From contig JAMLIN010000003.1 in NCBI GenBank assembly GCA_023954135.1, forward strand, positions 124,001-188,000: a DNA stretch of 64,000 bases, in the 5' to 3' direction. Position numbers and translations under genes: made by a program. The number at the start of each line of letters is the position of its first letter. Positions within the stretch are counted from its first letter, which is position 1. Positions 10,079-24,502 of this stretch are shown piece after piece. This DNA is from Burkholderiaceae bacterium. Its GTDB lineage: Bacteria; Pseudomonadota; Gammaproteobacteria; Burkholderiales; Burkholderiaceae_E. The notes beneath the pieces are model-generated. The model worked only from the letters and a program-made list of their open reading frames with translations. It was not told the DNA's origin and did not search any database.

Positions 10079-11563
10079 TCAAGACCTGCAATGCGCGCCG
10101 GGAAGCACGCGAACCCGGCGGAACTTTCCGCTGACCGGATTGCATTCGGGAGGCAAGGGATCGAGCTCGATTCGTACCGGCGCGGCTCCCTGTTGCTGCA
10201 GGAAGCGCGAGAGCGCCGCCTTCACTCGACGAAACGCCGATGCCCTCGCATGCTCGCCATCCGCATCGAGCCGCAGGCACAGGATGTCCGGCGCGGTCTG
10301 GGTCAGCTGGAAGAGATGGATATCCGTCTCCTCCTCGATGACGGTCTCGACCGCCAGGGGCAGGATCCGCACGACGGCGTCGCGACCTCCGCCACGCGCA
10401 CCGCGTGCCGCGTGCACCGGCTCGAGCACGAGCATGTCGTCGCCCCGTCCTTCCACCCGCAGCGACGGCCGGCTGCAACCGCAGGGACACATGGTCGTGT
10501 CCAGGCTCACGCTATCGCCCAGATCGTAGCGAATCAGCGGCTGGACCCGGTTCGCCAGGTTCGTCACCAGCACCGTCGCCGAAGGCTCGCCTGCCGGGAC
10601 CGGCCGATGGTTCTCGTCGACCGGCTCGAGCACCACCCAGTCATCGTTGAGGTGCAACCGGCCGTGTCCGCAACCGAAAGCCATGTTCATGCATTCGGAA
10701 GCACCGTAGTCCTCGACGATCCGGCATCCGAACGCTTCCTCGATATCGGCTCGATCGGACGGGGCAAGGCCTTCGCCGCCGCACCAGAGACCATGCGGCG
10801 ACACGGCCAGGCGCCCAGCCCGACGTTCCCCTGCGAGCAGCGTCATCATCGTCGGATACGACGAGATGAAGTCGGGCTGCCATTCATTGAGCTGGGCCAC
10901 GAGATCCGGCAGCGGCTGCAGGATCGAGAAGGCTCTGGCGGCCAGGGCGATCGGGGGATAGAGGCGGCGCTGCCGTTCCCAGGACACGATCCCCGCGAAA
11001 TGCCCGTCGATCGCCGCGACGAAGGCGAGCCGGCCGGATCCGGAACCCGGGAGCGCAGCGGTATCGCCACCGAGCTCGAAGCGGCTCGTCACCAGCGCGG
11101 TGTAGACCGCGATCGCATCCGGATCCTGCACGTAGACACCCGGAACGCCCGTGGTACCCGAGCTGGTCCAGACCGTGTACTTGCCGAGCCAGGGATCGGC
11201 GATACGCGCCGGATCGGCGACGAAGCTCAGCAGCTCGGCCTTCTTCAGCCGGGTGTCGGTGACCCAGTCGTCGAACCGGGCCATCAGCATCTTGCGTGTC
11301 ACCGGCGGATACGCCGCAAGCTCGATGCTTCCCGGCGCCACTTGCCGATAGTGCTCGCGATAGAACGCCGACGCCGACCGGGCGTGCTCGATCATCGACG
11401 CCACACGGCGCTGCCGGATCGCGGCACGCGTCGCCTCGTCGGCCCTGTCGTACGCCCGGATCTCATGGGCGTACGCGCCCCAGCGCCAGAGGTCGTCTGC
11501 CGCCCGCAGCCACTCCCAGGGGCTGGCAGCCCCGAGGAATGCGGACAAGGGATTCGTCTCCAT
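10079..11563 (-). CDS. PaaK-like phenylacetate-CoA ligase family protein
   Basis: 494 residues, ANL superfamily, PaaK branch. The P-loop is WTSSGTTGVPGVYV near residue 130, followed by SYPTMM, EDYGASE and IRYDLGD. A cysteine cluster (CPCGCSRP) before the hinge GRGDDML is common in this branch, where it may bind a metal. Such enzymes adenylate an aromatic or other carboxylate and transfer it to CoA; the substrate here is not determined, and no ring-oxidation (paaABCDE) genes are near. The gene is convergent with acnA, 51 bases away. Confidence 0.85.
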   Translation of the reverse strand: METNPLSAFLGAASPWEWLRAADDLWRWGAYAHEIRAYDRADEATRAAIRQRRVASMIEHARSASAFYREHYRQVAPGSIELAAYPPVTRKMLMARFDDWVTDTRLKKAELLSFVADPARIADPWLGKYTVWTSSGTTGVPGVYVQDPDAIAVYTALVTSRFELGGDTAALPGSGSGRLAFVAAIDGHFAGIVSWERQRRLYPPIALAARAFSILQPLPDLVAQLNEWQPDFISSYPTMMTLLAGERRAGRLAVSPHGLWCGGEGLAPSDRADIEEAFGCRIVEDYGASECMNMAFGCGHGRLHLNDDWVVLEPVDENHRPVPAGEPSATVLVTNLANRVQPLIRYDLGDSVSLDTTMCPCGCSRPSLRVEGRGDDMLVLEPVHAARGARGGGRDAVVRILPLAVETVIEEETDIHLFQLTQTAPDILCLRLDADGEHARASAFRRVKAALSRFLQQQGAAPVRIELDPLPPECNPVSGKFRRVRVLPGAHCRS

Positions 11564-11643
11564 CGCGACAATCTAGCCCCGCCGCGCCGAAGCTTGCTGA
11601 TTCAGGTCAACCGCCGCCGCCATGGGCGGCGGATCCCCGCGGT

Positions 11644-13014
11644 TCAGGAGGTTTCCGGAACGCTCGGCAGCCCCGCCAGCGCCATCGCCAGCTCTTCCTC
11701 GCTGTAGGACTGGTTGGTCAGCTCACCGGCAGAGTAGGACATGTATGCCGCCATGTCGAAATGGCCGTGGCCGCACAGATTGAACAGGATCGTCTCCGAG
11801 CGGCCCTCGCGCTTGCAGCGCAAGGCTTCCTCGATCGCCCCCTTGACCGCGTGATTGGCCTCGGGCGCCGGGAGGATGCCCTCGGTGCGCGCGAACTGGA
11901 TCCCGGCGTCGAAGCATTCGACCTGCTGGTAGGCAACCGCATCGATCAGCCCGAGATCGAGCAGATGCGATACCAGCGGCGCCATCCCGTGATATCGCAG
12001 GCCCCCTGCATGAAAGCCCGGTGGCGTGAAGGTGGAACCGAGCGTATGCATCTTGGTGAGCGGCGTCATGTGCGCGGTATCGCCGAAATCGTAGGCGAAC
12101 CGCCCGCGGGTGAGCGACGGACAGGCCGCCGGCTCGACCGCCACCACCCTGGGCTTCGCGCCGCCCCGCAGCCCCTCACCGATGAAGGGAAAGGCGATGC
12201 CCGCGAAGTTGGAGCCGCCGCCGGTGCAGCCGACGATGACGTCGGGCCATGTATCGGCCATCTTCATCTGCTCCATCGCCTCGAGACCGACGATGGTCTG
12301 GTGCAGCAGGACGTGGTTGAGCACCGAGCCAAGCGCGTACTTGGTGTCGTCGCGCTTGACCGCCACTTCGACGGCCTCGGAGATCGCGATGCCGAGGCTC
12401 CCCGGGTGATCCGGTCGCTTCTCGAGCACCGCCCGCCCGTATTCCGTCTCGGTCGAGGGCGACGGCAGGCAGCGCGCCCCGTAGGACTCCATCAGGGCGC
12501 GGCGATACGGCTTCTGGTCGTAGGACACCCGGACCTGGAAGACGGTGACGTCGATGCCGAACAACGCTCCGGCATAGGCGAGCGACGAGCCCCACTGCCC
12601 CGCTCCGGTCTCGGTCGCCAGGCGCTTGATGCCGGCTTCCCGGTTGTAGAAGGCCTGTGCCACCGCGGTGTTCGGCTTGTGGCTGCCGGCGGGGCTGACA
12701 CCCTCGTACTTGTAGAAGATCTTCGCCGGCGTGCCCAGGGCCTTCTCGAGCCGATGCGCCCGGAACAGCGGGCTCGGCCGCCACAGGCGATAGATGTCGC
12801 GCACCGGCTCTGGAATCTCGACCTCGCGCTCGGTCGTGACCTCCTGCATGATGAGTTCCATCGGGAACAGCGGCGCCAGATCGTCCGGGCCCACCGGCTG
12901 CATGGTTCCCGGATGGAGCACCGGCGCCATCGGCCGGGGAAGGTCGGCCTGGATGTTGTACCAACGCTTCGGGATACGGCTCTCGTCAAGCAGATACTTG
13001 GTTTGCGACCCCAT
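11644..13014 (-). CDS. TrpB2-type tryptophan synthase beta chain-like PLP enzyme
   Basis: 456 residues, longer than TrpB1 and with the N-terminal extension typical of TrpB2 (YNIQADLP). The PLP lysine lies in AGSHKPNTA, and GCTGGGSNFAG is the phosphate-binding glycine loop. Family members convert indole plus serine to tryptophan without needing a TrpA partner, or act in salvage. No trpA or other trp gene is in the window. It sits between the PaaK-like ligase and an acyl-CoA dehydrogenase on the same strand with gaps of 80-140 bases, so separate transcripts are possible. Confidence 0.92.
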   Translation of the reverse strand: MGSQTKYLLDESRIPKRWYNIQADLPRPMAPVLHPGTMQPVGPDDLAPLFPMELIMQEVTTEREVEIPEPVRDIYRLWRPSPLFRAHRLEKALGTPAKIFYKYEGVSPAGSHKPNTAVAQAFYNREAGIKRLATETGAGQWGSSLAYAGALFGIDVTVFQVRVSYDQKPYRRALMESYGARCLPSPSTETEYGRAVLEKRPDHPGSLGIAISEAVEVAVKRDDTKYALGSVLNHVLLHQTIVGLEAMEQMKMADTWPDVIVGCTGGGSNFAGIAFPFIGEGLRGGAKPRVVAVEPAACPSLTRGRFAYDFGDTAHMTPLTKMHTLGSTFTPPGFHAGGLRYHGMAPLVSHLLDLGLIDAVAYQQVECFDAGIQFARTEGILPAPEANHAVKGAIEEALRCKREGRSETILFNLCGHGHFDMAAYMSYSAGELTNQSYSEEELAMALAGLPSVPETS

Positions 13015-13151: not shown

Positions 13152-14306
13152 CTACTTGGCGGCGCCGAGACCCATCGACCGTGTGATCACCTCTTTCATG
13201 ATCTCGTTGGTGCCACCGTATATCCGCTGAACCCGCGCGTCGGCGTAAGCACGGGCGATCGGATACTCCCACATGAAGCCGTAGCCGCCATGCAGCTGGA
13301 CGCATTCGTCCATCACCTTGCACTGCAGGTCGCTGCACCAGTACTTCGCCATCGACGCCGTCGCCGTATCCAGCTTGCCCACAAGCAGCAGCTCCAGGCA
13401 GCGATCGACGAACACCCGTCCGATCTGCACCTCGGTCTGCAACTCGGCAAGCTTGAACCGGGTGTTCTGGTAGGCCGACACCGTGGTGCCGAAAACCTTG
13501 CGCTCCTTGACGTAGGTGGAAGTCCAGTCGATGGCCGCCTGGGCGGACTCGATCGCACCGATCGCAATCTGCATGCGCTCCCAGGGCAACTCCTGCATGA
13601 GATAGATGAAGCCCCGATTCTCATCGCCGAGCAGGTTTTCGACAGGAACCTTGACGTCGTTGAAGAAGAGCTCCGACGTATCCTGAGCCTTGAGACCGAC
13701 CTTCTTCAGGCGCTTGCCTTTCTCGAAGCCGGGCATTCCGCGTTCGACCAGGATCAGGCTGGTTCCCTTGGCGCCCTCGCTCGGATTGGTCTTGGCGACG
13801 ACGATCACCACATCGGCGTGCCAGCCGTTGGTGATGAAGGTCTTCGAGCCGTTCACCACATAGTGGTCGCCCTTGCGGATCGCCGTCGTGCGCACGCCCT
13901 GAAGATCCGAGCCAGCGGCAGGCTCGCTCATCGCGATGGCTCCGACCAGCTCACCGGCAGCCATCTTCGGCAGAAAACGCTTCTTCTGTTCGTCCGAGCC
14001 GTAGTTGAAGATGTAAGGCGCAACGATCTCGGAGTGCAGGCTGAAGCCGAGGCCCGTCGCATTGACGCGCGCCGTCTCCTCCATCAGAACCACCGAGTAG
14101 AGCTTGTCGACACCGGCTCCGCCGAAAGCCTCCGGCATGGAAGGACACAGAAAGCCGTTCTCCCCCGCCTTCGTCCAGATCTCCCGATCCACGTAGCCCT
14201 GCTCCTCCCAACGCTCGTGGTGTGGAGCGACTTCGTTCTCCATGAACCGACGAACCGAGTCGCGGAACATCTGGTGTTCGTCATTGAAGATGGTGCGCTC
14301 GATCAT
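13152..14306 (-). CDS. Acyl-CoA dehydrogenase (LCAD/IVD-type active site)
   Basis: 384 residues, FAD-dependent alpha,beta-dehydrogenation of an acyl-CoA. Signatures are AMSEPAAGSDLQG, FITNGWHADV and RIYGGTNEIMKEVI. The MCAD-type catalytic glutamate position (YEGT) is YGGT here, whereas LMQELPWERMQIA matches the helix-G segment that supplies the base in long-chain and isovaleryl-CoA dehydrogenases, so the enzyme should still be active. It is the last host-like gene before the low-GC block; composition changes within its upstream region. Confidence 0.92.
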   Translation of the reverse strand: MIERTIFNDEHQMFRDSVRRFMENEVAPHHERWEEQGYVDREIWTKAGENGFLCPSMPEAFGGAGVDKLYSVVLMEETARVNATGLGFSLHSEIVAPYIFNYGSDEQKKRFLPKMAAGELVGAIAMSEPAAGSDLQGVRTTAIRKGDHYVVNGSKTFITNGWHADVVIVVAKTNPSEGAKGTSLILVERGMPGFEKGKRLKKVGLKAQDTSELFFNDVKVPVENLLGDENRGFIYLMQELPWERMQIAIGAIESAQAAIDWTSTYVKERKVFGTTVSAYQNTRFKLAELQTEVQIGRVFVDRCLELLLVGKLDTATASMAKYWCSDLQCKVMDECVQLHGGYGFMWEYPIARAYADARVQRIYGGTNEIMKEVITRSMGLGAAK

Positions 14307-14654
14307 CGGTCTGGCTCCTGGCGTGTGTTCGATCAGTCGGAAACCCCTGATGGTTGTGAGTCATGGGGAAGAAGTCAATGGGTGTGGAGGCACTTATCCA
14401 TCCGCCCAAGTAATCAGCCTGGATCTGCTGAGATCCGCACGTCCTGTCACTTACACGGGTGCCGTCACTTATCAGTCGCTAGGACATTCGCCATAGGACG
14501 AAACCACGCGATCTCTGGCAGTATCAAACAACGAAGAACAACATAGCCCAATCAACCCCCTTTGACTACGTAACGACGGAGGTAGTTGACAAGGGCACCG
14601 TCGACAGCATCAACGACGGACCTCAATGCTCATTCCTATAGCGACGGTTTGAAT
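14307..14654. other. 348-base gene-free stretch at the left edge of the low-GC block
   Basis: No convincing gene. GC falls to about 50% from ~14340. The sequence CACTTA occurs at 14391, 14448 and 14466. The last two belong to GTCACTTA copies whose starts are 18 bases apart. A purine-rich ggaggt lies at 14578, just 2 bases before a possible TTG start (14586) of the kinase. It probably holds the kinase promoter and perhaps operator sites. Confidence 0.5.
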
Positions 14655-16052
14655 ATGAAAAACCTGTTTCCGCCGCATTTTCAGTCGGACGAAATCGAGG
14701 TTGCGTTTCGGCGCCAGTATGCCAGAACAGGACATCGACAATCCGTGATCGGCCTGTCAATCGGACTCGTTCTCGCGCTTGTTGCGATCACACTATCGAT
14801 CATCCTCGATCACCAAAATGACAACCCTCGAGCCGAGCTAATTCTATTCACAATTCGAAGTGTGATCGCCATTATTCTTGGGATTGGGCTGATAAATCTT
14901 CCACAGCAGGAAAAAGCGGAACCGGATGACTACTACCGATGGGTCGTCAGACCAGCGGCACTCGCTATCCTGGCACTCGTACTGAACTATTGGGTCGCGG
15001 CCTATTACGCTGAAACACCGCCTCCAGCGGCACGCATCTTTTTAGTATCCTCTCTCGCTCTTTGGCTGTTCTGTGCATTCGCCCGGCCAAGTAGTCAACT
15101 AGCCGCCGTCATCGCCTCCATCTCCTCGATAGGCGCAATAGCTGCCGGCTACATCTCGGAGGCCAGTGGAATTCTGGACACGGTGGCGTATTTATTGATC
15201 GCAAATTTTTCAGCAATGAGTGTAACGATACAATCTGAAAAACGAGCTCGCACACTATATCAGCGCACTCTTGAACTCGAAGAATCCCAACGTCAGTTAA
15301 GCGAAAAATCGGAACGCGCCATACGATCGCGAGACTTCAAGTCTCGTGTCTTGACAACGGTGTCGCATGATCTTCGGCAACCGCTACTCGGTGCAGATCT
15401 AGTTCTCTCCAATCAACTAATAAGTAAGAGTGGACCTGATCTTGCAAAGCTGCGCTTGGTCTCCAACGCGTTACGTCAGATACAAGCGGGACTAGAGGAG
15501 ATCCTTCGCGCAGCCGTGGCGGATGAGGTCGATCCCGAAAGCTCTGTAGAACCAATCGAGCTCTCCGCCATCGTTGTACAAGCGCTTACCGATATCCAGC
15601 CTATTGCTCACCAAGCTGGCATTGAGGTTCACTGGAGAAATCACCTACCGCCAAGTACGCGAGTGTCGACCTCGCCAGCGGTCGTTCGGACCGCTTTGCT
15701 GAATCTGCTGGGCAACGCCCTGAAGTTTCAACGTAGGGTGTCGAACCCGTGGGTGCTCGTGCGATGCTTCGTCGCCCCATCTCGACAGAACAGTGTGTAC
15801 CTTGAAGTCATCGACAACGGTCCAGGAGTTGATCCGGAGTCAGCGACAGAGATCTTCACGACCGGCTACAGACTCCCACGTGACAGCGATGTGCCAGGCT
15901 TTGGAATCGGACTCGCCTCTGTGGCCGAACAGGTGCGCGAACTACCACACCATGACGTAATGTTGGTTCGCAGGTATCGCAGAGGAGCCCGCTTTCGGCT
16001 AACCTTGCCAGTCGCATCTTCGATCACGCGTTTACGTGACATCGGGGCTTGA
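14655..16052 (+). CDS. Six-TM membrane sensor histidine kinase (CqsS/LqsS/PhcS-like architecture)
   Basis: 465 residues from ATG 14655; a TTG at 14586 would add 23 unstructured residues, and its Shine-Dalgarno is too close. Six hydrophobic segments fill residues ~31-190 with very short loops and no periplasmic sensor domain. A short coiled coil (RTLYQRTLELEESQRQL) leads to the H-box TVSHDLRQPL and an HATPase domain (NLLGNALKF, DNGPGVD, GFGIGLAS). No receiver domain is attached and no response regulator lies nearby. Compact six-TM sensors of this layout detect small lipophilic signals in CqsS, LqsS and PhcS; detailed similarity cannot be tested here. GC and codon use are clearly lower than in the flanks. 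It precedes the FeeM-like synthase on the same strand, which suggests a signal-receptor pair. Confidence 0.85.
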   Translation: MKNLFPPHFQSDEIEVAFRRQYARTGHRQSVIGLSIGLVLALVAITLSIILDHQNDNPRAELILFTIRSVIAIILGIGLINLPQQEKAEPDDYYRWVVRPAALAILALVLNYWVAAYYAETPPPAARIFLVSSLALWLFCAFARPSSQLAAVIASISSIGAIAAGYISEASGILDTVAYLLIANFSAMSVTIQSEKRARTLYQRTLELEESQRQLSEKSERAIRSRDFKSRVLTTVSHDLRQPLLGADLVLSNQLISKSGPDLAKLRLVSNALRQIQAGLEEILRAAVADEVDPESSVEPIELSAIVVQALTDIQPIAHQAGIEVHWRNHLPPSTRVSTSPAVVRTALLNLLGNALKFQRRVSNPWVLVRCFVAPSRQNSVYLEVIDNGPGVDPESATEIFTTGYRLPRDSDVPGFGIGLASVAEQVRELPHHDVMLVRRYRRGARFRLTLPVASSITRLRDIGA

Positions 16053-16221
16053 GGGAAGTTACACGTCCTCATAGTTGCAAGCGACGCCAGTGCCTCGAAT
16101 GCGAGTGGCACGCTCGCTCGCGGTTCGCGTGTGACCGATCTCGATGCATCCCGAGCGCATAGGCGGGCTGTTCGGATCAAGCAACATACGACTGATCTTC
16201 AGAACCTGTGGCGCCTGCTTC

Positions 16222-17010
16222 ATGACGTTTTCCGCTCAGACCGTAGTATCAATCGACTCGAGTGTTGTCACAGACCTCGATCCACCTCTCCAGCGCACCC
16301 CAAAGCAGGTCGGGCTCCCGTTTCGGGTTCGTATTGCCCGAACGGAGGAGCAGCTTCAGAAAGCCATCGAAATTCGGGCAGAGGCCTATACGCGACACTT
16401 GCCTGCTCTTGGTGAAACCCTGCGAACTACCGAGCACGTCGATCTGACACCAGATTGCCTAGTCATATTGGCAGAATCGAAGTCCGATGAACTTCCTGTC
16501 GGAACGATGCGAATTCAAACAAACTTCCATGCTCCACTGGCCATGGAGACATCGATCCATTTACCTACGAACTTCCGTGAACGTCCGCTGGCCGCCGTTT
16601 CTCGGTTAGCCGTGAAAGCCGGGCCTCGAGGGAAAATGGTGAAATTAGCATTATTTAAAGCAATGCATCGATATTGCATTGCAAAACAAGTGGAATGGGT
16701 GCTAATCGGAGCGCGTCCGCCGCTCGAGGAAACTTATTTAGGACTCGACTTTATAGATGTCTTCCCAGACAAAAACCCGAGACCATTAGCTACGGCCAAA
16801 AATCTACCTCACCGCATCCTAGCATTTGAGATCGCAACAGCCGAGCGGCGCTGGCATGAAATTGATCACCCTTTGTATAACTTCATGATCAATCGCTTTC
16901 ATCCGGATATCGAGATATTCAACTCGGTAAGCAATCGCTGGCTTCAGCCACGCGCAAGAAGGGCAGTCCCTGGATGGGACGGCCCACCACTCGACTCCCC
17001 ACTCGTCTAG
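16222..17010 (+). CDS. FeeM-like N-acyl amino acid synthase (GNAT/autoinducer-synthase fold)
   Basis: 262 residues from ATG 16222; ATG 16144 would add 26 residues. Neither start has a clear ribosome site. Visible landmarks of the FeeM branch are AIEIRAEAY near the start, PVGTMRIQTN (beta strand 4), AAVSRLAVKAGPRGKM (pantetheine/acyl-binding beta-bulge region) and LGLDFIDVF. FeeM makes long-chain N-acyl tyrosines from acyl-ACP and is structurally between GNAT acetyltransferases and LuxI-type acyl-homoserine lactone synthases. The LuxI signature residues are not evident, so I do not call it LuxI. It follows the kinase on the same strand and faces the methyltransferase gene (12 bases between stops). 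GC is low throughout. Product and donor are unknown. Confidence 0.72.
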   Translation: MTFSAQTVVSIDSSVVTDLDPPLQRTPKQVGLPFRVRIARTEEQLQKAIEIRAEAYTRHLPALGETLRTTEHVDLTPDCLVILAESKSDELPVGTMRIQTNFHAPLAMETSIHLPTNFRERPLAAVSRLAVKAGPRGKMVKLALFKAMHRYCIAKQVEWVLIGARPPLEETYLGLDFIDVFPDKNPRPLATAKNLPHRILAFEIATAERRWHEIDHPLYNFMINRFHPDIEIFNSVSNRWLQPRARRAVPGWDGPPLDSPLV

Positions 17011-17022
17011 GGCGAGTTAACG

Positions 17023-17592
17023 TCATCGCGGCCAACGAAAGAACATGCCGACGCGACTTCGATATTTTTTGTAATCACTCCCCAGTGGTGACAATATAAT
17101 ATCCATCTCTTCTTGTCTTCCCGTCCGAAAATAAAGAACCCCCATTACAGTCAAAATAGGCAATCCCAAAAAAAAGGGGGCAACAACAGCCACGCCAGCC
17201 CAAAACAGCAGGTACGACAGATAGAAGGGATGCCGTGCAACCTGATATGCGCCACTCGTTACTAAAGCCTCGGGGGCCCCATGCGTAAATGCTATACCCG
17301 GTCGTCGCTGATTGTGGCTTCGCGTCGTCCAATAAAACAAAAGCAATGACAGCAAGTATAAAACCACCACAACGCCGACCAGCAGATCATTCGAATACAC
17401 TCCTCCAAGCCAAACCAATGGCAATTGCACAATAGCGAACGCCGTTCCAAGCGGGCCCAGACCCCCTCTAATTCGATCCTCGTTCGGTCGTCTAAAATAA
17501 CACCTTCTGCCCCACTGAAAAGCAGCTAAGCAGCCGATATTCAGGACGATCATCGAAACAAACAACAAATCCACGCGACATTCTCCAGGCAT
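17023..17592 (-). CDS. Isoprenylcysteine carboxyl methyltransferase-family integral membrane methyltransferase
   Basis: 189 residues if it starts at ATG 17592; ATG 17640 and 17748 extend it with a Cys-rich stretch that has no family counterpart. It has about five hydrophobic segments and the ICMT/PEMT signature GAYQVARHPFYLSYLLFW, followed by the C-terminal SAM-binding part with RTGRQEEMDIILSPLG and YKKYRSRVGMFFRWPR (glutamate and YxxY-type residues). Enzymes of this family methylate lipophilic carboxylates (prenylcysteine) or lipid amines inside the membrane. It is convergent with the FeeM-like gene and divergent from the GGDEF-EAL gene. Composition is AT-rich like its neighbours. Methylation of the N-acyl amino acid carboxyl is an attractive but untested role. 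Confidence 0.78.
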   Translation of the reverse strand: MPGECRVDLLFVSMIVLNIGCLAAFQWGRRCYFRRPNEDRIRGGLGPLGTAFAIVQLPLVWLGGVYSNDLLVGVVVVLYLLSLLLFYWTTRSHNQRRPGIAFTHGAPEALVTSGAYQVARHPFYLSYLLFWAGVAVVAPFFLGLPILTVMGVLYFRTGRQEEMDIILSPLGSDYKKYRSRVGMFFRWPR

Positions 17593-17778
17593 CTCGCAAG
17601 CAAAGCACTGTACATCATTCGACAAGCTTGCCGCGACCATCTCACACAATGGAGCGCACCGCTGAGATCGCACACACAGAGATGGGCGACGCAACACGTG
17701 CGATACCTCTTCTCCGACCGATGATCTGACACGTATCGACCGTTCCAACTGGATCGCTGACCGCTTGTCGCCAGCACG

Positions 17779-20700
17779 GTGCTGCGGACTTCAGTGCTGC
17801 GTACGCTTGCCGCACGGTCCGTAAACACCTGGCATCAGGTAATTAACTTGAGCGACGTCCGGCGCATTGGTGCTCAATTTCTGTCCCTAGTCGATGTATT
17901 GGCTAAGGGACTGGCTGCTCTTGCGATCCTCGGCGGCATCCTGTTCGCCGTAGCCCTGTTGGCGTTAGACCACAAGCTTGAGCCTCTGCAGCAACTCACG
18001 TTCCGGGCCACGAGTGACGTCGACGGAACTCTATCGGTAGCTAACGCCCGAACTCTTCTTGAATCGGAGAGGGCCGGCGAACGATCTGAGCTCGACACAC
18101 GGAGAAAAGAACACGCGTTTTGGCTATACACGGAGAGCTTTCAATTTGCCAATGAAGAAGGAATTACATTCGAAATAAGCTCCAGGCACATCATCTCCGC
18201 CGACCTGTGGTTAATCGACGATCATGGAGATGTCGTATCCTATTCAAGCACCGCCTCAACAGGCGCCCTGGCGCTCACGCGAGGGCGAGCCGGATTTTCT
18301 CTAACCATTCCCCCATTCGACGGAGATTTACGCGCCCTTATAAAAGTCAACGCAAGCGGCCCAGCGAAGATCGGCATACAGCTATGGAATTCCGCCGAGT
18401 TCACCGAAGCCACGAACCGTTACAACGCGCACGGCGGTGTACTCTTTGGCTGCCTGCTGATGCTCGCTGGGTTCGGCGCTCTGGTGTCATTACTGGCACG
18501 CGACTGGGCTTTCTTTATTTTTGCAGGCTGGGTCCTTGCAAGCCTGAGAATCTCGTCCTATATGGCTGGATGGGACATGTCCTGGATGGGGCTTCCCTTT
18601 CTCGAAGAATATCCAGTCATATCACGCAACATCCCACTAGCGGCGTACGCGATCCTGATGATCGCCTTGTTCCGATCGCTATTTCAAAGTGAAATTACAA
18701 AAGAGACAGATCGACGCCTAGTAACCGCACTAGTCGGCATATCTCCATTTCTATTAGTCACCGCAATTCTATTGCCACATGACAAATACTTGCCGGTTCT
18801 TTGGGCCATCGCAGCGCCGAGCCTAGTGTTACTCATGTGGCTCACGGGTCGCATCTTCTGCTCTACAGGGTCTTCCGTTGCGCTTTGGTATGGCGGTTCA
18901 TGGATCGTCACACTCGCGGGCGCAGCAACGGAAATCGGATATGCGTCCGGAATTCTTGGCATCAAACCGCCGCTTTTGAATGGCGTATCAGGGTCGGTTA
19001 TATCCGCAGCACTAGCAGGAGTTGCGCTGGCTGAAAGAATAAAAATCGAGCGCTCACAACGACTGGCTGCTCAAAGGGAATCATACGCGCTACTGGAAAG
19101 GTTCCGAGAAAACTATAACTCGATGCCAATCGGGCTCTTCAGCGCGAAGCCCGATGGAGCCGTCGTACTGCACAACCCGGAATTCTCGAAGATCTTTCAA
19201 CTGAACGACACGGGCGCGAAAATCAAGCTCTCGGATCTGATCGGCGAAGGGCCGGCCCGAACCGTACTTCGGGCGGTGGAGCACACCCCTGTGGCCGACT
19301 GCGAGGTCCTGTCCGAAAAGGGGGATGGAGAGCCGCGCTGGTTCCTTGCCCGCATCAAGCGCTCTGCGGAAGGTATCGAGGGATCGATCCAGGACATCTC
19401 GGCTCGCAAACAGGCCGAAGGCAAACTCAAGCGACTGGTCACCCATGACTCGCTTACCGGGCTACTCAATCGCCGCGGCCTCGATATCGCGCTCGAACGG
19501 CTGCTCGATAGCGCTCGCATGGGCAATGCCTGCGCTGTGGCGTACGTCGATCTCGACCGCTTCAAGGTGATCAACGACCTCCACGGTCACGCAACCGGGG
19601 ATGCGGTGCTGCGAGTCGTCGCTCAGCGCCTGCAGGAGTCCGTGCGGATCCAGGATTCGGTGGCGCGAATCGCGGATTCGTTCCTCGTCGTGTTCAACGA
19701 CTGTCCCGACTACGCGGTATCCGGGCTCAGCGAGCGGATCCGCGAGGCCATCAGCGGACATCCTTTCGAGGCCAACGGCAAGGTTCTCAGCGTGACCGTC
19801 AGCGTTGGCGTGGTCCAGGTCGACCCCGTCATGCAGGCGGTGGACGTGATCGCCACGGCGGACCGCGCCTGCATGGAAGCCAAGTCTCAGGGCCGCAACC
19901 GGGTCGTCTTCCTCAACGACAAGGACAATTCGCTGCGCAACCATCTCGACGAGATGAAGCTCGTCGCCGACATGCACGGCAATGCGCTGACGGAGCGCTA
20001 CTTCATGGAGTTCCAGCCGATCGTCGCATTGGCCAGCGCCCAGCTCTCCCTGAACTACGAGGTTCTGATCCGCATGCGCGGCCTTGACGGCGAGGTCATC
20101 CCGCCGGGACGATTCATCGGGGCGGCCGAGAGGAACGGCCTGATGTCCCATATCGATCGGTGGGTCCTGAAGTCCACACTCGAGTGGCTCGATAGCCACC
20201 CCATCCATCGGGACCGGCTGAATTTCGCGACGATCAACATCAGCGGCGCTTCGCTGAACGATGCTCGCTTCGTCGAGGATGCGTTCGCGATGATCGCCGA
20301 CCATCCTCTGGCGGTCAGCAAGCTTTGCTTCGAGATCACGGAGAGCGTCGCCCTGCATGACATCGGGTCGACCCGCAATTTCGTGGACCGACTGCGCCGC
20401 TGCGGAGCCAAGCTGGCGCTCGATGATTTCGGTGCGGGGTATACGTCCTTCAACTATCTGAAGGAGATCCCCGCCGACCTGATCAAGATCGACGGCAGCT
20501 TCGTTCGCGACATCAACCGCAATCCGGCCAACTACGCGATCACTCGAATGATCGTCGACCTCACCCACGAACTCGGCATGGAGAGCATTGCCGAGTGGGC
20601 GGAAACCCCCGACACCGTCAAGGCGCTGATCGGCCTCGGGGTCGACTACGGACAGGGCTTCGGGCTGGCCCGTCCGATGGACAAGGGCATCGTCACCGCA

Positions 20701-20787
20701 GCGAAATCGGGACTGGAGCTGGTCAAGGATCAGCGGGTCGCCGAGATGATCTCCCGGGCACGCGAAGTCCGCATCCACATGGTCTGA
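17779..20787 (+). CDS. 7TM-sensor PAS-GGDEF(degenerate)-EAL c-di-GMP protein
   Basis: 1002 residues from GTG 17779. An N-terminal TM helix (~40-65) precedes a periplasmic beta-rich domain (~70-205, 7TMR-DISM-like), then seven TM segments (~210-400), a PAS-like domain (~430-540), GGDEF (~545-710) and EAL (~720-980). The GGDEF signature is lost: ARIADSF stands where RxGGDEF is expected, so cyclase activity is unlikely. The EAL domain keeps YEVLIR, NISGASL, EITES, LDDFGAGYTSF and IKIDGSF, so c-di-GMP phosphodiesterase activity is likely. GC is ~50-55% up to about 19,150 and ~63-65% afterwards, meaning the sensor half looks acquired and the output half looks native. It is divergent from the methyltransferase gene. 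Confidence 0.88.
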   Translation: MLRTSVLRTLAARSVNTWHQVINLSDVRRIGAQFLSLVDVLAKGLAALAILGGILFAVALLALDHKLEPLQQLTFRATSDVDGTLSVANARTLLESERAGERSELDTRRKEHAFWLYTESFQFANEEGITFEISSRHIISADLWLIDDHGDVVSYSSTASTGALALTRGRAGFSLTIPPFDGDLRALIKVNASGPAKIGIQLWNSAEFTEATNRYNAHGGVLFGCLLMLAGFGALVSLLARDWAFFIFAGWVLASLRISSYMAGWDMSWMGLPFLEEYPVISRNIPLAAYAILMIALFRSLFQSEITKETDRRLVTALVGISPFLLVTAILLPHDKYLPVLWAIAAPSLVLLMWLTGRIFCSTGSSVALWYGGSWIVTLAGAATEIGYASGILGIKPPLLNGVSGSVISAALAGVALAERIKIERSQRLAAQRESYALLERFRENYNSMPIGLFSAKPDGAVVLHNPEFSKIFQLNDTGAKIKLSDLIGEGPARTVLRAVEHTPVADCEVLSEKGDGEPRWFLARIKRSAEGIEGSIQDISARKQAEGKLKRLVTHDSLTGLLNRRGLDIALERLLDSARMGNACAVAYVDLDRFKVINDLHGHATGDAVLRVVAQRLQESVRIQDSVARIADSFLVVFNDCPDYAVSGLSERIREAISGHPFEANGKVLSVTVSVGVVQVDPVMQAVDVIATADRACMEAKSQGRNRVVFLNDKDNSLRNHLDEMKLVADMHGNALTERYFMEFQPIVALASAQLSLNYEVLIRMRGLDGEVIPPGRFIGAAERNGLMSHIDRWVLKSTLEWLDSHPIHRDRLNFATINISGASLNDARFVEDAFAMIADHPLAVSKLCFEITESVALHDIGSTRNFVDRLRRCGAKLALDDFGAGYTSFNYLKEIPADLIKIDGSFVRDINRNPANYAITRMIVDLTHELGMESIAEWAETPDTVKALIGLGVDYGQGFGLARPMDKGIVTAAKSGLELVKDQRVAEMISRAREVRIHMV

Positions 20788-20940: not shown

Positions 20941-21015
20941 CGACCCTGCGTCCCGCGGCGCAGCAATTCCCCTGCCGGTTTATGATTGGTCGCTCGCAGC
21001 AGACCTCCGGCGCCC

Positions 21016-22830
<1,815 letters not shown>

Positions 22831-22852: not shown

Positions 22853-24502
22853 ATGGCACGAGAGAGCAAGAGAGCCCATCCCTATCGCGAACCCGTCACG
22901 CCGCGCCCGGCGGCGACCGTCCTGCTGATGCGCGACGCGGGGGCCGATTTCGAGATCCTCATGACGAGGCGTTCCGAGACAGCCAGCTTCGTCCCCGGGG
23001 TCTTCGTGTTCCCCGGCGGCGCGCTCGATGCGGCCGATCGCTCGACCCGGGCGCAAGCCCTCGCGCGCTTCCGCCCGAGCCAGGATGACGACCTGCGCGC
23101 CTTCTCGATCGCCGCGATCCGCGAGGCCTACGAAGAGCTGGGGATCCTCCTGGCCTACGGCACCGACGGCCGCCTCATCTCGCAGGATGTCGTCGAGCGG
23201 CTCGACCGCAGTGACCAGGCGTTCTTCGACCAGATCGAGCGCGAATCCCTCACCCTCGCCGCCGACAGCATGCGCTGGTACTGCCGCTGGGTGACGGACC
23301 CGGACATGCCCAAGCGCTTCGACGTCCGCTTCCTTGTCGCCCGCATCCCCGACGGGCAGTCGCCGGTCGCCGACGAGTCCGAGCAGTTCGAGCCGATCTG
23401 GATCTCCCCGCGCGAGGCCCTGGATGGTCATGAGACCGGCCGGATCCCGATGATCTTCCCGACCGTCCGGACCTTGCGCCGGCTCGCCGAAGTCCGGTCG
23501 GTCGACGAGGTGCTGGCGCAGTGCCGCGACGATGCGCCGGTGTTCCACTCTTTCCCCCGCGGAGGCTACCGCAAGGGGGAGATCGAACGCTTCTCGGAAC
23601 ACGAGTCTCCCTACGGTGAGCTCGAGCTCGTCTGCCCCGACGGGCAAATCCTCCATCACCTCGACTGGCAGCACGAACGACCGGTCCGGCTCACGCGCGA
23701 CATCCAGCGCCTGACCGCCCCGAATCCCGGAGTCATGACCGGCCCCGGCACCAATACCTACATCGTCGGCGACGCGGATGCCGGCTACGCCGTCATCGAC
23801 CCGGGGCCGGACGACGACCCGGGCCACATCGAGCGGATCGCCGCGATCGTGGGCGACAGGCTGCGCTACATCATCTGCACCCATTCGCACCCGGACCATT
23901 CCCCGGGAGCAGCGCCGCTCAAGGCGCTCGCCGGGGGCACGATCATGGGTCGCCCCACCGCGGAGGCGGTGCGCGAGCTCTGGCCCTTCGAGCCGGAACA
24001 TGTCCTCGAGGACGGCGAGCGCATCGTCGTCGGCGATTCCACCCTGCGCGTCCTGCACACGCCGGGCCACCAGTCCAACCATGTCTGCCTGCTGCTCGAG
24101 GAAGACAGGCTGCTGTTCACGGGCGACCACATCATGAACGGCTCGACCGTGGTCATCAGCCCGCCCGATGGCGACATGCACGCGTACATGTTGGCGCTGG
24201 AACGACTACGCGAGGAACCGGTCGACTACATCCTGCCGGCGCATGGGCATGTGCTGGGCTCGCCCGTGCAGGCGATCGATGCGCTCATCCGCCACCGGCT
24301 CGGCCGCGAGCGCAAGGTGGTCGCCGGGCTGGAGAAGGTGGGCCCGGACGCCACCATCGAAAAGCTGCTGCCGGTGGTCTACGACGACGTCCCGCCCACG
24401 CTCCATCCGGTAGCGGCCCGGTCGCTGCGGGCGCATCTCGACAAGCTGGTGGTCGACGGGCGCGCCAGCGTCGTCAACGAGGCCTGGACGATGGTCGCCT
24501 GA
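22853..24502 (+). CDS. Nudix hydrolase / metallo-beta-lactamase fold fusion protein
   Basis: 549 residues. Residues ~15-230 are a Nudix domain with an enlarged loop; the helix AIREAYEELGIL is the REUxEExGU half of the Nudix box. Residues ~280-480 are an MBL hydrolase with THSHPDH as zinc motif, TPGHQSNH, TGDHIM and AHGH, followed by a winged-helix-like C-terminal segment as in LACTB2-type proteins. Nudix proteins hydrolyse nucleoside-diphosphate-linked compounds including CoA derivatives, and MBL proteins hydrolyse thioesters or phosphoesters. A joint role in CoA or acyl-CoA turnover would fit the neighbouring FadJ-like gene but is unproven. Confidence 0.88.
   Translation: MARESKRAHPYREPVTPRPAATVLLMRDAGADFEILMTRRSETASFVPGVFVFPGGALDAADRSTRAQALARFRPSQDDDLRAFSIAAIREAYEELGILLAYGTDGRLISQDVVERLDRSDQAFFDQIERESLTLAADSMRWYCRWVTDPDMPKRFDVRFLVARIPDGQSPVADESEQFEPIWISPREALDGHETGRIPMIFPTVRTLRRLAEVRSVDEVLAQCRDDAPVFHSFPRGGYRKGEIERFSEHESPYGELELVCPDGQILHHLDWQHERPVRLTRDIQRLTAPNPGVMTGPGTNTYIVGDADAGYAVIDPGPDDDPGHIERIAAIVGDRLRYIICTHSHPDHSPGAAPLKALAGGTIMGRPTAEAVRELWPFEPEHVLEDGERIVVGDSTLRVLHTPGHQSNHVCLLLEEDRLLFTGDHIMNGSTVVISPPDGDMHAYMLALERLREEPVDYILPAHGHVLGSPVQAIDALIRHRLGRERKVVAGLEKVGPDATIEKLLPVVYDDVPPTLHPVAARSLRAHLDKLVVDGRASVVNEAWTMVA

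Follow-up and report, generated by a model that had tools for sequence, protein, structure and literature searches.

We describe a four-gene cassette of low G+C content (GC) in a Burkholderiaceae bacterium that is likely to be a self-contained acyl-signal system, in which a synthase and its cognate receptors are under group-specific (pherotype-like) diversification. The cassette lies in a 64-kb stretch of genome G000 (contig JAMLIN010000003.1, positions 124001-188000), called the window below; features of the cassette and its flanks are given in window positions. It consists of genes for a six-transmembrane (six-TM) histidine kinase (14586-16052, + strand), a FeeM-fold acyltransferase (16144-17010, +), a membrane methyltransferase (17023-17748, -) and a membrane-anchored cyclic di-GMP (c-di-GMP) protein (17779-20787, +), with an acyl-CoA dehydrogenase gene on one side and an enoyl-CoA hydratase gene on the other. 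A preliminary description of this DNA had put these four genes together as a quorum-sensing-like unit making an N-acyl amino acid; every gene is present and backed by domain scans, the methyltransferase at superfamily level. Two steps are demonstrated at the level of sequence: related cassettes share a single chromosomal slot, and the acyltransferase is exchanged as a block with the sensor domains of both the kinase and the c-di-GMP protein.

The exchanged block is delimited by steps in identity between closely related loci. Between L124 and L125, identity outside the block is 96% for the dehydrogenase, 81% for the catalytic half of the kinase, 92% for the output half of the c-di-GMP protein and 88% for the right-hand anchor gene (LacB); inside the block it is 48% for the kinase TM domain, 49% for the acyltransferase and 28% for the c-di-GMP sensor. 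The same three segments are 34, 45 and 28% identical between L027 and L036, with 91% for the output half and 86% for the anchor. In this pair the block extends further, since the catalytic half of the kinase is also just 40% identical. The same stepped pattern is found for L026-L030, and three same-type control pairs (L124-L132, L033-L125 and L130-L131) show no step. The step falls at residue 424-438 of the c-di-GMP protein, past its seven TM helices (7TM), and near residue 205 of the kinase, past TM6.

The 37 locus pairs with an anchor identity of at least 75% fall into two groups. In 21 of them the acyltransferase is 27-52% and the c-di-GMP sensor 22-29% identical, and in the other 16 these values are 67-87% and 51-73%, so that the split of the acyltransferase and that of the sensor coincide exactly. 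Kinase TM identity is 34-58% in the first group versus 52-80% in the second; the output half has a median of 79% in either group, and LacB medians of 81 and 78%. In the acyltransferase tree the window clusters with L025, L026 and L045 (support 99/95), and in the sensor tree its partners are L025, L026 and L105 (94/96). These clades span at least three genera, and the trees of the output half and the anchor mostly track genera. Approximately unbiased tests, on groups named after viewing the trees of other segments, rejected the type clades for the c-di-GMP output half (p 3e-5 to 4e-10) and the species pairs for the acyltransferase and the sensor (p 0.005 to 4e-10). With three long-branch loci left out, the partial correlation of acyltransferase distance, given the anchor, is 0.87 with the sensor, 0.31 with the output half and 0.48 with the kinase TM domain.

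The low GC of the cassette genes in high-GC surroundings, pointed out in the preliminary description, is readily seen: GC is 0.53-0.54 across 14-19 kb of the window and 0.65-0.70 around it. The span of 14340-19150 given there holds for the low GC but ends inside the c-di-GMP gene, which runs to 20787. Within this gene the low GC stops at the sensor/output junction, GC at third codon positions (GC3) being about 0.55 in the sensor half and 0.81 in the output half. The catalytic half of the window's kinase is also low in GC3 (0.55). Median GC3 values are 0.92 for the left flank, 0.78 for the kinase catalytic half, 0.58 for the kinase TM domain, 0.57 for the acyltransferase, 0.58 for the sensor, 0.81 for the output half and 0.89 for the right flank. 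Recent horizontal import was considered as the cause of the low GC and rejected, because the low GC3 of the block is common to all sampled kinase-bearing cassettes. Sensor-bearing loci that have no acyltransferase (L103 and L129) show a GC3 of 0.9.

Since the exchanged block ends, in both genes, where the sensor passes into the output half, we argue that the product of the enzyme would be read by both sensors. Enzyme and sensor types always match within closely related pairs, for which a synthase with cognate receptors is therefore the best explanation. Two receptors are probable because the kinase TM domain co-diverges with the acyltransferase too, the sensor of the c-di-GMP protein being the one that does so most tightly.

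Several points weigh against a synthase with cognate receptors. Joint transfer alone is no proof of cognate recognition, since a single recombination tract is contiguous; what carries the argument is the repetition of tracts with identical junctions. When all 17 loci are included, a correlation with acyltransferase distance appears for the output half as well (partial r 0.80). The acyltransferase of genome G002 (L041) resembles the L029 type, and its sensor (L105, on another contig) is of the window's type; this mismatch may stem from assembly, from mis-binning of strains, or from true recombination. In other families, acyltransferase/c-di-GMP pairs without a kinase diverge smoothly and no block exchange is seen among them. 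They retain Glu at the position equivalent to the catalytic Glu95 of FeeM, and thus polymorphism, kinase, low GC and loss of this Glu go together. The acyltransferase itself may be altered, as none of the kinase-bearing cassettes in the window's family has Glu at this position. Finally, the window's kinase is inverted, lacks a receiver domain and is merely 20-28% identical to the other kinases. It may therefore be an atypical or decaying member, and because it is such an outlier, what is said here of sensing by the kinase rests on its relatives.

The distribution of the cassette was examined in 81 related genomes, in 399 genomes across the order, in 369 across the class (E 1e-10) and, for the slot, in 74 genomes of the family. 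Of the 81 related genomes, 21 carry the acyltransferase, 19 have a match to the c-di-GMP sensor at E < 1e-80 and 16 a match to the kinase TM domain at E < 1e-50. Acyltransferase and sensor are found together in 18 genomes, the acyltransferase alone in three, the sensor alone in one and neither in 59 (Fisher p 5e-14, approximate because of species relatedness and contig breaks). Strong matches to the kinase TM domain are restricted to genomes having both. The three genes are adjacent in most of the related genomes that bear the acyltransferase. Order-wide, the acyltransferase occurs in 19 of 399 genomes, and at each of the 18 loci where the flanks are intact and the enzyme is not a diverged one it adjoins the c-di-GMP gene, its most widely kept partner; the association with the kinase is found mainly within the window's family. 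Gene order differs at L040, L070, L042 and L078-L080, which retain the full set or the acyltransferase/c-di-GMP core. No member of this acyltransferase subfamily was found outside Burkholderiales in the class-wide sample. Named hosts of the cassette include Quisquiliibacterium transsilvanicum (DSM 29781, of the window's type) and Zeimonas arvi (CC-CFT501), isolates that bear the canonical cassette, as well as Aquabacterium and Rhodoferax.

Many of the loci come from metagenome assemblies, and several contigs end inside the cassette. L118 and L127 end at or near the sensor/output junction (residues 431 and 439 of the c-di-GMP protein), and L033, L031 and L137 near the kinase junction (residues ~245, ~267 and ~285). 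Such ends resemble the behaviour of an assembler where the alleles of one population fork, but are merely suggestive of coexisting alleles because L123, L141 and L105 end elsewhere. Three loci, L058, L061 and L070, carry a Burkholderiales cassette on contigs binned as Deltaproteobacteria, Actinomycetes and Methanoregulaceae, and are probably mis-binned. An earlier suggestion that the genes are present all-or-none within genus g3 was withdrawn, G034 having a c-di-GMP fragment at a contig end.

The canonical slot runs from the acyl-CoA dehydrogenase through an optional gene of 401 codons, the kinase, the acyltransferase, the c-di-GMP gene and the enoyl-CoA hydratase to the anchor. In the window the dehydrogenase (13152-14306, -) forms a conserved left anchor with about 80% identity in relatives. 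The right anchor, LacB, a protein with Nudix and metallo-beta-lactamase folds (22853-24502, +), locates the slot in 52 of the 74 family genomes. The intervening gene for an enoyl-CoA hydratase/3HCDH-like protein (20986-22830, +), recognized in domain scans of neighbouring genes, was rejected as an anchor because it is too divergent. The slot is empty in G008 (L139) and holds the c-di-GMP gene alone in G003 (L134). In the congener G023 (L116), and partly in G044 and G812, it is occupied by a kinase whose six-TM domain is related, a different GNAT (PF13302, 1.4e-13) and a soluble PAS-GGDEF-EAL protein; the slot thus keeps its architecture with another enzyme. That the genes form one unit, as previously proposed, is thus borne out by co-occurrence, the single slot and joint block exchange, and the acyltransferase, kinase and c-di-GMP protein are indeed conserved together in other genomes. 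Rfam and tRNA scans of the 64-kb window gave no matches.

Other arrangements were also seen. In L103 (G005) the slot has no acyltransferase but contains a 7TMR c-di-GMP gene of high GC and a distant kinase, with two open reading frames (10469-11794 and 12041-12883) between them. A second, diverged FeeM-like subfamily lies beside an rpoH-like sigma factor gene in L107, L108, L043 and L024, without kinase or c-di-GMP neighbours; ftsY is also nearby in L107 and L043. In L038 (G004:C56) a diverged FeeM-like gene sits between two membrane GGDEF proteins, another pairing of an acyltransferase with c-di-GMP proteins. In four Aquabacterium loci (L072, L074, L075 and L077) the neighbour of the FeeM-like gene is a different hybrid kinase, and a 7TMR c-di-GMP gene is absent.

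The fold of the acyltransferase (core 16300-16968), the predicted signal synthase, and its assignment to the FeeM family are secure. The protein scores 35.0 bits against Pfam FeeM (PF21926), above the curated cut-off of 27, and this family is matched, more weakly or more strongly, by 15 of 16 relatives. For its AlphaFold2 model (predicted local distance difference test, pLDDT, 89.8; 39 sequences), Foldseek and VIA-align both rank FeeM (2G0B) first among solved structures. VIA-align aligned 172 residues with Z 18.7 and a root-mean-square deviation of 2.6, the next rows reaching at most 15.4. Ordinary GNATs align at Z 13-15, and the enzyme does not cluster with GNAT protein acetylases, FeeM being the best match by 3 Z units. 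The relatedness of FeeM to LuxI is also reflected in the model, which the acyl-homoserine-lactone synthases RpaI, BjaI, LasI and TofI match with Z 14-15, among many GNATs. No match to Autoind_synth (PF00765) was found in Pfam scans of the window's acyltransferase or its relatives; a LuxI search of the window's genome gave no match, but its control matched nowhere either.

Eight positions (R, E, D, R, N, R, K and C) are near-invariant in 66 acyltransferase homologues. The equivalent of FeeM Glu95, placed by numbering and alignment offset as the residue three before the conserved R of an S/T-R-L motif, is Ala151 in the window (codon 16594-16596, +). Of 65 homologues, 25 have Glu here, and almost all of these lie outside the kinase-bearing cassettes found in the window's family. 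Those cassettes have Tyr, His, Gly, Gln, Phe, Asn, Trp or, in the window, Ala; the rearranged locus L070, on a contig binned as an archaeon, keeps Glu. Glu95 is catalytic in FeeM, as is Glu103 in Nas354, whose activity is abolished by a change of this residue to alanine (PMC4897644). The N-acyl amino acid product assigned to the enzyme in the preliminary description is therefore unsupported, and such a product must be regarded as unproven; the genes are still supported as one unit, with two receptors probable.

The methyltransferase (core 17026-17565; start probably downstream of the listed TTG) scores 23.7 bits against PEMT, below the curated cut-off, 15.7 bits against ICMT (PF04140; cut-off 24) and 41.6 bits against NCBIfam isopcys_mtase (NF040696; cut-off 160). 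Since all three scores are under the cut-offs, the ICMT-family label it had been given holds only as a likeness within the ICMT/PEMT superfamily. It lies inside the exchanged block, between acyltransferase and sensor, and is confined to the window's allele type (four loci), so that it likely tailors the signal in one allele type and is not a general part of the unit. Methyl esters of N-acyl amino acids occur naturally (PMC11580390).

The kinase gene is listed from a TTG at 14586, with ATG 14655 as its likely start. It comprises the TM sensor domain (14679-15320), which co-diverges with the acyltransferase in relatives, and a DHp/ATPase half (15321-16025) with H-box HDLRQP, intact N and G boxes and a HATPase_c match (6.6e-15). 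In the AlphaFold2 model (pLDDT 83.5) six TM helices run directly into the phosphoacceptor helix, as expected of the compact kinase without a periplasmic domain that had been described. A fold search against PDB gave matches confined to kinase cores. The absence of a response regulator noted earlier applies to the window, whose kinase has no receiver; Response_reg is fused to the kinase in 7 of 12 relatives. Kinase and acyltransferase genes are divergently oriented in relatives and share one direction in the window. A simple 9-mer comparison of 24 divergent intergenic regions, a weak method, revealed no operator shared by kinase and acyltransferase.

The c-di-GMP protein had been recognized as membrane-sensing, and its sensor (17821-19068), within the exchangeable block, indeed resembles 7TMR-DISM_7TM, although below the cut-off. 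The output half (19066-20778), which has genome-typical GC3 and tracks the species tree in relatives, contains a weak PAS match, GGDEF and EAL. EAL catalytic residues are kept in the window's protein and across 42 homologues; most of these carry VGDEF or IGDEF as their GGDEF signature, which in the window is a degenerate RIADSF. The constant activity of the protein is thus predicted to be c-di-GMP hydrolysis.

In the mechanism that we propose, the FeeM-fold enzyme would join an acyl chain to a small acceptor, and in the window's allele type the methyltransferase would modify the product. The 7TMR-DISM-like domain of the c-di-GMP phosphodiesterase would sense the lipophilic product at the membrane, and in the window's family the six-TM kinase would do so as well. 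The output would be altered c-di-GMP hydrolysis plus kinase signalling, via the fused receiver domain in most relatives.

This arrangement has partial counterparts among known systems. In ComQXPA the kinase half of the receptor and ComA stay conserved. The comQXP locus of Bacillus is a highly polymorphic synthase/signal/receptor locus that defines communication groups (PMC4408185). The likeness extends to relatives of the window, in which synthase and sensor domains are polymorphic as a block and output domains and flanks are conserved; unlike the peptide signal of ComQXPA, the predicted signal here is an acyltransferase product, with two receptors, one of them a c-di-GMP phosphodiesterase. 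Compact six-TM kinases without a periplasmic domain also lie beside lipophilic-signal synthases in CqsA/CqsS, LqsA/LqsS and PhcB/PhcS, but here the linked synthase is FeeM-fold and not CqsA, LqsA or PhcB, and there is an additional c-di-GMP receptor. RpfF/RpfR of the diffusible signal factor systems likewise pairs an acyl-signal synthase with a PAS-GGDEF-EAL protein; in the order-wide sample the predicted synthase is paired in this way at the 18 loci whose flanks are intact and whose enzyme is non-diverged. RpfF is a crotonase-fold dehydratase/thioesterase and RpfR is soluble, whereas the cassette has a FeeM-fold enzyme and a 7TM-anchored receptor. The crotonase-fold synthase is not part of the unit, the enoyl-CoA hydratase gene at 20986 being a flank outside the exchanged block. 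The Xanthomonas Rpf system also has RpfC, a hybrid kinase in the membrane; neither an HD-GYP regulator nor an Hpt was seen here. The PAS domain of RpfR binds the acyl signal made by RpfF, which switches on c-di-GMP hydrolysis (PMC6361424), and so provides a precedent for a c-di-GMP protein as receptor. The cassette enzyme shares Pfam family, fold and catalytic-core architecture with FeeM and with Nas343/Nas354 (PMC4897644), but is only about 17% identical to FeeM, has Ala at the Glu95 equivalent and sits between two receptor genes. No such signalling module was described for FeeM in the literature searched.

The block might be a mere hotspot of recombination or variability, produced for example by diversifying selection on membrane proteins, with the enzyme hitch-hiking between the sensor domains. 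Sensor domains are generally fast-evolving, and in the canonical order the three segments lie next to one another, so that no tract can span both sensors without including the enzyme. We nevertheless hold this to be improbable, for same-type pairs at equal species distance show no step, the set is kept together at rearranged loci, and the enzyme itself, predicted to be soluble, drops to 27-52% identity against 75-96% for genes 2 kb away. We give somewhat more weight, while still doubting it, to a surface lipid or biosurfactant locus, at which the kinase and the c-di-GMP protein would regulate an N-acyl amino acid surfactant together with surface behaviour and the product would go unsensed. Characterised FeeM relatives produce N-acyltyrosine surfactants, and one metagenomic pair has a C-terminal domain resembling a c-di-GMP-binding protein (PMC4897644), a precedent for a link to c-di-GMP without signalling; beta-oxidation genes, moreover, flank the slot. 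Such a locus leaves unexplained why enzyme and both sensor domains are swapped jointly while the output domains stay, and why another GNAT replaces the enzyme in the slot beside a kinase of the same type.

Acylation of a cellular macromolecule (protein, polyamine or lipid), modulating the kinase or the c-di-GMP protein directly and involving no diffusible signal, would suit an enzyme in which the catalytic Glu position is not conserved and to which ordinary GNATs align at Z 13-15. FeeM is nevertheless the closest structure by a clear interval and Pfam FeeM is found in 15 of 16 members, and a dedicated methyltransferase in one type better suits a small product, so that we rate this idea as low as that of a hotspot. 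Least credible, to the point of being very unlikely, is an N-acyl amino acid synthase linked to exosortase/PEP-CTERM. Passages of the literature tie some synthases to exosortase loci, and an exosortase (PF09721, found in 30 of the 81 relatives) is present in 12 of the 21 genomes with the acyltransferase, but none was found in the window's own 98%-complete genome and no exosortase-related gene is among the scanned flanking genes.

Our literature searches found no published description of such an acyltransferase/sensor module, and the physiological role of FeeM-type acyltransferases is not clear (PMC4897644). It is an evenly balanced question whether the cassette represents a new class of quorum or kin recognition that works by an acyl signal in Burkholderiales. 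In such a class, one exchangeable low-GC block would hold a synthase and the sensor halves of two receptors, with many ancient alleles (one with an unrelated GNAT) at a single slot, forming pherotypes with direct c-di-GMP output and a product that is not one of the classical N-acyl amino acids. Genome evolution here ties a FeeM-type enzyme to cognate sensors, giving a signal-receptor pair that is directly testable in named, culturable hosts. If the reading is right, it would add a class of signal, make a membrane-anchored c-di-GMP phosphodiesterase a pherotype receptor, and provide a Gram-negative counterpart of ComQXP-style communication groups.

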